Source of the DNA: Maribacter algarum (ex Lu et al. 2025) (nom. illeg.)
GTDB lineage: Bacteria; Bacteroidota; Bacteroidia; Flavobacteriales; Flavobacteriaceae
Direction: 5' to 3'
Length of the DNA: 64,000 nt
Assembly (NCBI GenBank): GCA_947495915.1
Contig: CANMAW010000001.1
Coordinates: 1,054,001 to 1,118,000 of the forward strand
Below, in pieces: positions 948-20,088 of the stretch. The notes under the pieces are model-generated. The model saw nothing but the letters and a program-made list of their open reading frames with translations. It was not told where the DNA came from and searched no databases. The translations under genes and the position numbers were made by a program. Within the stretch, counting starts at the first letter, position 1; every line of letters starts with the position of its first letter.

Positions 948-969
948 GGAACTGGACTCACCTAGTTCC
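948..969 (-). promoter_or_regulatory. RNA hairpin in the leader upstream of GNAT-argG
   Basis: On the minus strand this reads as a stem of GGAACT plus GG paired with CC plus AGTTCC, with a one-base bulge and a five-base loop. It lies between the stop of the arginine-rich leader frame (988) and the GNAT start (901). No U-run follows directly, so it is not a classical intrinsic terminator. It could be one arm of a switch governed by ribosome position on the leader, or a block to Rho or to initiation. Stem seen in sequence; role inferred. Confidence 0.4.
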
Positions 970-987
970 ATAGAATGTGTAGTACCC

Positions 988-1071
988 TTACGGGCGACGG
1001 CGGCGGGGAGCGAACGTACGTACATCAGCTGTGATGCTAGTAGTAAATAAAATGTTGTTCTGTGCCTTCAT
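988..1071 (-). CDS. Candidate arginine leader peptide (27 aa)
   Basis: ATG at 1071-1069 opens a 27-codon frame ending TAA at 990-988. The peptide has Arg at residue 18 and four consecutive Arg at 23-26, followed by Pro and stop (ending FAPRRRRP). The four codons are CGC CGC CGT CGC, which stand out in an AT-rich genome. It lies 87 bases upstream of a GNAT-argG operon, after a plausible promoter and before a hairpin. Runs of the regulated amino acid next to the stop are the hallmark of attenuator leader peptides in other amino-acid operons. I infer that ribosome stalling at low charged tRNA-Arg controls the operon. Too short to be called by standard gene finders. Confidence 0.72.
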   Translation of the reverse strand: MKAQNNILFTTSITADVRTFAPRRRRP

Positions 1072-1086
1072 TACGGTGTAAATGTA

Positions 1087-1116
1087 CAAATTATCTTTAG
1101 TCCACCTAATTCAAAA
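1087..1116 (-). promoter_or_regulatory. Candidate promoter of the arginine leader / GNAT-argG operon
   Basis: Minus-strand TTTTG at 1116-1112 is followed after 18 bases by TAATTTG at 1093-1087, one base shorter than the TAnnTTTG consensus of Bacteroidota. Transcription would start near 1080, about ten bases before the leader ATG and just after the stop of the upstream glycosyltransferase gene. Confidence 0.45.
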
Positions 1117-20015: not shown

Positions 20016-20088
20016 TGGTGCCTCCAGGAATCGAACCAGGGACACATGGATTTTCAGTCCATTGCTCTACCAACTGAGCTAAGGCACC
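20016..20088 (-). tRNA. tRNA-Phe (GAA)
   Basis: A 73-base cloverleaf on the minus strand. The acceptor arms GGTGCCT and AGGCACC pair, with discriminator A. The D arm (GCTC..GAGC), the anticodon arm ATGGA-CTGAAAA-TCCAT with anticodon GAA, and the T arm CCTGG-TTCGATT-CCTGG are all intact. CCA is not encoded. A hairpin terminator follows directly. Confidence 0.96.

Follow-up and report, generated by a model that had tools for sequence, protein, structure and literature searches.

A widespread candidate leader-peptide regulator for arginine(-proline) biosynthesis in Flavobacteriaceae

Ribosome-mediated attenuators (his, trp, leu, thr, ilv) share a short leader ORF that precedes the biosynthetic operon and contains consecutive codons for the operon's end product, and end-product-codon leader peptides are textbook examples for his, trp, leu and thr. 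In fungi, the arginine attenuator peptide (AAP), encoded by the arg-2/CPA1 uORF, is a conserved peptide that, at high arginine, halts ribosomes on the stop codon. The speF leader of Salmonella contains a short upstream ORF, orf34, in which adjacent Arg codons are described as sensing arginine, and Rho-dependent termination is involved (PMC6386406). The uORFC-8-2 motif described before cysS in Rhodobacterales joins a leader ORF to a conserved RNA in front of the matching amino-acid gene (PMC8632094). For F. psychrophilum, clues for leader-peptide attenuation before amino-acid operons have been reported, the pheA and hisG elements being conserved in the family (PMC9723704). No leader peptide for bacterial arginine biosynthesis, including in Bacteroidota, was found in the literature searched, a scope outside which most subscription journals fall. 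The locus considered here lies in a 64,000-nucleotide stretch of Maribacter algarum DNA (the window) and, with a probability of about 0.8, carries a putative leader-peptide regulator of the arginine(-proline) biosynthesis operon that is widespread in Flavobacteriaceae.

The first gene of this operon, on the minus strand at 287-901 (ATG at 901), encodes a GNAT-family acetyltransferase (PF00583) and overlaps argG (argininosuccinate synthase, minus strand, 3-290), which is cut by the window end. The genes argC through argH lie outside the window, and the order GNAT-argG-argC-proC-argD-proA-proB-argF-argB-argE-argH, all on one strand, is taken from locus L287 of the same genome. Matches over the curated cut-off identify argG, argC, proC, proA, proB, argB and argH, and argD, the argF-type carbamoyltransferase gene and argE are named by best matches below it. 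The GNAT protein matches NCBIfam PRK07757 weakly (24 bits, cut-off 154); by its position it may, at a guess, be a glutamate N-acyltransferase of the arginine pathway. An earlier note on this DNA had claimed that the operon makes arginine, which agrees with the arg genes from GNAT-argG-argC to argH; with the proline genes proC, proA and proB, also outside the window, the gene content predicts that arginine and proline are the products. In all 20 operons fetched, GNAT-argG-argC head the arg genes; 18 of these operons include proC, six proB and four proA. Of the two operons lacking proC, one (L319, genome G020) has a leader ending in FRRTFVRA-stop, without Pro, and the other (L331, G182) retains the RRP of the leader.

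The leader ORF occupies 988-1071 of the minus strand, between an ORF at 1136-2479 with the same reading direction and the GNAT gene. Its 27 codons encode MKAQNNILFTTSITADVRTFAPRRRRP, and the frame was examined both in the sequence itself and by comparison with relatives. It starts with an ATG at 1071-1069 and ends in four Arg codons (CGC CGC CGT CGC, 1005-994), a Pro codon (CCG, 993-991) and TAA (990-988), exactly the Arg4-Pro-stop frame that the earlier note had read. Among the 1681 short ORFs (8-60 aa) on both strands of the window this is the sole one with RRR within its last seven residues, and RRR is absent from the window's 41 long ORFs, which comprise 17,009 codons (3.4% Arg); the Arg run is therefore not due to chance. 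The commonest Arg codon in these long ORFs is AGA (228 of 581).

Ahead of the leader lies a promoter-like -7 region, TAATTTGTACATTTA (1079-1093, minus strand), with two overlapping candidate boxes, which was compared with 148 distinct relatives having an ATG-started RRP frame. The -7 box of Bacteroidota has the consensus TAnnTTTG. The promoter pair proposed earlier is present, with TTTTG at 1116-1112, an 18-base spacer and TAATTTG at 1093-1087 (minus strand), and TACATTTA at 1086-1079 provides a second match to TAnnTTTG. TAnnTTT(G/A) stands 15 bases 5' of the ATG in 87 of the 148 relatives and TAATTTG 22 bases 5' of it in 57. Since TTTG or TTGG occurs at -44, the place of TTTTG in the window, in 2 of the 148, the candidate -33 element (TTTTG) is not conserved in sequence. 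The box counts suggest that transcripts may start within a few bases of the leader ATG, and with the alternative box TACATTTA the start would fall nearer to it than the approximately ten bases given in the earlier note.

A search with the GNAT protein gave 58 hits in 98 related genomes, and a search of genome contigs gave 504 relatives, of which the best 80 were kept. Together with the 30 best of the 58 hits, these 80 form a GNAT-selected sample of 110 loci with 102 distinct upstream sequences; as the best 80 of the 504 are close kin (76-89% GNAT identity), broader samples weigh more. The earlier note had made its reading depend on an Arg-rich short frame before argG-linked GNAT genes of relatives, and an Arg-Arg-Pro-stop frame, open over at least 18 codons, precedes the gene in 106 of the 110 loci and in 98 of the 102 distinct sequences. 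The exceptions are L019, L028 and L029, which have an Arg run with a different end, and L030, which ends in RPRP-stop. An in-frame ATG is found in 102 of the 110 loci, and ATG, GTG or TTG in 106.

The transcript can form three conserved hairpins on the minus strand. The earlier note had placed a hairpin before the GNAT start; it is indeed present (P2, 969-948), though not alone, being accompanied by P1 and P0. P0 (1022-1037, GCAUCA CAGC UGAUGU) lies within the leader ORF and keeps its position in relatives, where its sequence shows compensatory changes. P1 (983-996) has the last Arg and Pro codons as its 5' arm, a GUAA loop containing the stop codon and GGGU as its 3' arm, with 4 pairs here (995-984). 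P2 (948-969) consists of GGAACU, a bulged A, GG, the loop UGAGU, CC and AGUUCC; its lower stem covaries and its top is near-invariant. In an RNA alignment of 67 sequences with a hand-written 13-pair structure, 95.5% of the cells are paired and seven pairs have changed on both sides. The covariation of this structure is 0.132 vs 0.050 in shuffles, 0 of 500 of which reach 0.132, in a comparison that, like all shuffle tests and p-values reported here, overstates significance because the sequences are related. RNAalifold, unaided, returns the same two hairpins, P1 and P2. P1 is near-invariant, with one pair changed on both sides and the outermost pair missing in 26 of the 67 sequences. In a pair-permutation test the strongly covarying helices are P0 (z 8.9) and P2 (z 10.2) only. 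The folding of P0 has a mean z of -1.24 (165 sequences), and the leader of the window as a whole folds no better than shuffles (z -0.02). The P2 core AGGTGNGTCC occurs in 110 of the 110 GNAT-selected loci; the genome has nine AGGTGNGTCC sites, the full stem being formed at the arg site only. A search of the whole window with Rfam release 15 at gathering level gave no match other than a tRNA, and at E up to 5 region 850-1160 gave one chance match, on the opposite strand. The tRNA gene, the single gathering-level match, lies at 20016-20088 on the minus strand.

A covariance model built from the 67-sequence alignment was used in both genome surveys, with stricter many-genome filters. It matches 181 of 299 Flavobacteriaceae genomes, at least one of them falsely, and 149 of 236 genera, with one site per genome save for one genome with two; phylum-wide it matches 17 of 395 genomes, 16 of them Flavobacteriaceae. 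The GNAT gene is present in 197 of the 299 genomes: motif and GNAT occur together in 178, the motif only in 3, GNAT only in 19 and neither in 99. When 172 hit loci were read, 165 had the GNAT start 0-120 nt 3' of the motif on the same strand, two had it at 159 and 234 nt, and five lacked this gene. Three matches, L155 (in another family, E 0.0098), L281 (the second in G229) and L282 (G305), adjoin neither GNAT nor argG and are false. In L123 and L193 a different gene stands in the place of GNAT and is followed by argG, that of L123 encoding another GNAT-family protein and that of L193 a product without a Pfam match. The distance from the P2 loop to the GNAT start has a median of 63 nt and a 5-95% range of 58-76 (275 loci). 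Four of the 19 GNAT-only genomes were read, and all four have an Arg-rich short ORF, two with recognisable P1/P2: L283 ends in YPRRP-stop and L286 in RRFTRRPLRA-stop, both with a diverged hairpin pair, L284 has only an upstream ORF ending in RFRRRL-stop, and in L285 an ORF ending in PRRRIRE-stop is followed by a hairpin of another sequence. The model therefore undercounts the motif.

Some genera appear from their sequences to have tandem leaders. By a strict pattern, 22 of 277 loci have a second conserved Arg-rich short ORF (e.g. MKNLKNKIRCSVPGLPARNYRRCF) 5' of the first. It is found approximately 300 nt before GNAT in L020, L021, L022, L025, L030 and others, and also in L283, and L284 has the second only.

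The codon composition of the leader was counted on the model hits, the GNAT-selected loci being counted apart because the covariance model itself favours CG at neighbouring codons. The 172 aligned hits give 169 after removal of the 3 false ones and 167 (166 distinct) after removal of L181 and L267, whose loop is not UGNG. Choosing the Arg-richest frame missed the leader frame in several loci (L146, L209, L216, L221, L228), and fixed-frame counts were used instead. Codon 0 is Arg by construction of the anchor and is excluded as evidence. The leader frame is stop-free over 17 codons in 164 of the 166 distinct loci vs 63 and 62 for the other two frames. Arg makes up 23% of leader codons -1 to -14 vs 3.8% in downstream genes (6.0x), most commonly at codons -6/-5 and -2 to 0; Pro is the second most enriched residue (9.7% vs 3.0%, 3.3x), and all remaining residues are enriched less than two-fold (Phe 1.95). 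Codon -1 is Arg in 153 of the 169 loci; in three of the 16 where it is not (L169, L172, L177) the anchor took the wrong frame. Synonymous choice differs as well, CGC and CGT accounting for 455 of 529 Arg codons in the leaders (86%) vs 318 of 1295 downstream (25%; Fisher p ~5e-135, uncorrected for relatedness). The leader frame is thus conserved and looks translated, as judged from sequence. The earlier interpretation, a regulator that acts through arginine codons in a leader, gains support from the recurrence of the frame (106/110 loci), its openness, the six-fold excess of Arg and the synonymous-codon bias.

With respect to output, the earlier note was right that no U-run follows P2, and no terminator-like site was found in 250-1300 of the window. 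A scan for hairpins followed by T in 167 arg leaders gave 58 sites under loose settings (P1 42, P0 13, P2 3) vs 21.9 in shuffles, and 24 under strict settings (P1 15, P0 8, P2 1) vs 2.9. In some members of the family, P1 with its pyrimidine tract may thus serve as a weak terminator or a signal for pausing. P2 as a canonical terminator is ruled out by its 3 of 167 loose and 1 of 167 strict sites. Leaders of hisG served as a control: 30 relatives were searched, 21 gave a hit, 20 were over the cut-off and 19 were anchored. All 19 anchored hisG leaders have a strong intrinsic terminator (shuffles 0.8), 18 of the 19 have a His-rich short ORF upstream, and none of the 19 contains the P2 core. In the genome of the window itself, the His leader MRNTNTHHHLLTGYQAR precedes hisG (L303, G000:C6), with a strong intrinsic terminator after it; amino-acid leaders are thus used in this genome. 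Strong terminators are found in the hisG leaders of relatives and not in the arg leaders, as expected from the earlier suggestion of an output other than plain intrinsic termination; the same cell seems to control histidine by ordinary attenuation and arginine in some other way.

The effect of a ribosome on these structures was computed by folding with a footprint assumed to reach 18 nt upstream and 12 nt downstream of the A-site codon. P1 is lost with the A site at the stop codon, -1 or -2 and mostly present at -4 or -6, and P2 is little changed. As P1 is removed at the stop and at -1/-2 alike, P1 alone cannot separate the two ribosome states. In this model a ribosome stalled early would mask part of P0 and spare P1, and the opposite would hold for one at the stop codon, which would amount to the geometry of a switch. 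Ribosome-blocked folding and the pair-permutation test found no competitor helix covarying with P1 or P2, and the switch itself is therefore not seen. The freed 3' arm of P1 has no consistent partner among the 166 loci: the partner lies upstream in 82, beyond P2 in 31, between P1 and P2 in 30 and within P2 in 23. The 5' arm CGCC of P1 is complementary to GGUG of P2 in 94% of the 166, both being near-invariant and without covariation, and base -1 and the loop base show no association (p 0.46). A pairing between the Arg codons and the top of P2, attractive as it looks, is disfavoured: five GA/UC loci keep the P2 stem by a double change, which favours the stem over this pairing, and L152 would break the alternative pairing.

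In the proposed mechanism, transcription from a promoter just upstream would yield an mRNA with the short leader as its first ORF, which in sequence ends in a CGC/CGU Arg run and a Pro codon. A shortage of charged tRNA-Arg, and perhaps of tRNA-Pro, would stall the ribosome on these codons; with plenty of charged tRNA, it would reach the stop codon in the P1 loop. Its position would set whether P0 and P1 form, an effect suggested by the computed geometry. The least certain step is the last, in which the state of the ribosome would act on GNAT-argG and the later genes either via premature termination that needs no strong intrinsic terminator (Rho and the weak signal of P1 and its pyrimidine tract being candidate routes) or via a factor that recognises P2. 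Rho- or P1-dependent termination is regarded as more likely than a P2-binding factor. A tentative and rather doubtful extension is that Arg and Pro are both sensed and read out through the P2 hairpin (bulged A, UGNGU loop), recognised by a putative factor or by the transcription machinery and not as an intrinsic terminator. To our knowledge, no output stage of this hairpin type exists among known amino-acid leaders. The match between the Pro codon of the leader and the proline genes of the operon is suggestive only, and since this codon is also part of the P1 stem, its conservation is no proof of Pro sensing.

A first rival explanation is a nascent-peptide sensor of the TnaC, SpeFL or fungal AAP type, in which free arginine and the peptide in the tunnel would stall the ribosome at Pro-stop, and the signal would be excess arginine and not starvation. 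Pro-stop is a slow context, and most leaders do end in Arg-Pro-stop (of 169 loci, 160 have Pro at codon +1 and 138 a stop at codon +2), but such a sensor is unlikely on several grounds. Across genera the N-terminal part of the leader varies in sequence and length, with similarity within groups of genera, and only the C-terminal Arg run is common; conserved residues beyond the Arg run, a trait of SpeFL, TnaC and AAP, are absent from the arg leaders across genera. The usual stop codon is absent in 31 of the 169 loci, and 24 of these retain Arg at -1 (as in RRPLG-stop, RRPVGRYIL-stop, RRRRPIWA-stop and FRRTFVRA-stop), which speaks for the sensing of codons rather than for an effect of the peptide itself. 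The CGC/CGT bias likewise points to codons and tRNA rather than residues. The same peptide variation makes it highly improbable that the leader is a small functional protein and not a sensor: its frame is conserved and looks translated, yet what is common across genera is the C-terminal Arg run alone, and the ORF keeps a near-fixed spacing before the arg operon (P2 loop to GNAT, median 63 nt).

If P1 and P2 formed a structured cis-regulatory RNA, either a riboswitch or a protein-binding element, the ORF would be incidental and CGYCGC would be kept for pairing. The near-invariant arms of P1 would fit, as would P2, whose stem covaries beneath a top that hardly changes: apart from the core in 110/110 loci, the 167 loci fitting a UGNG-requiring pattern have the loop UGAGU in 113, UGUGU in 36, UGCGU in 14 and another in 4, with closing pairs GG/CC in 162 and GA/UC in 5. 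Pairing would leave codons -1 to -14 unexplained, however, as these lie outside P1 and there one frame is open and rich in Arg (on average 3.2 Arg back to the first stop vs 0.6 and 0.4 in the other frames). The third bases of the codons also vary (codon -1, over all 169: T 114, C 46, A 6, G 3), and this explanation is judged quite improbable. Finally, P2 is an inverted repeat upstream of arg genes, and a transcription factor, for instance ArgR, might bind it as a DNA operator. Its dyad symmetry is broken by the bulged A or UA, several pairs change via G-U, which fits RNA, and P2 lies downstream of the promoter-like sequence and the ORF, so that an operator is scarcely to be expected. A leader whose Arg codons are sensed by the ribosome is thus preferred.

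With a his leader that has a terminator and an arg leader without one, a single cell offers a built-in comparison, which allows a direct test of how a stalled ribosome can signal where no strong intrinsic terminator is present. The preference for CGC/CGU, against AGA as the commonest Arg codon in the genes of the window, provides a natural test of selective tRNA charging. Among the described systems, the fungal AAP is likewise an arginine-responsive upstream ORF before an arginine gene, but it is eukaryotic, with a conserved peptide and no run of Arg codons. The orf34 of speF shares consecutive Arg codons in a short upstream ORF; as described, it differs in controlling ornithine decarboxylase, in its peptide domain (DUF2618), in having two Arg codons, at positions 12 and 13, in acting also via RNase G and RBS structures, and in belonging to gammaproteobacteria (PMC6386406). 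In the account given of uORFC-8-2, the differences are Cys codons, a terminator stem and an alphaproteobacterial host (PMC8632094). The leaders of F. psychrophilum come from the same family as the arg leader, and the main-text section on them names pheA and hisG but not arg (PMC9723704). Like the his, trp, leu, thr and ilv attenuators, the arg leader ORF carries a run of codons for the end product and stands before the operon for its synthesis. Unlike them, it lacks both a strong intrinsic terminator and a demonstrable antiterminator pair, and its stop codon lies in a hairpin loop that is followed by a second hairpin with a near-invariant top.
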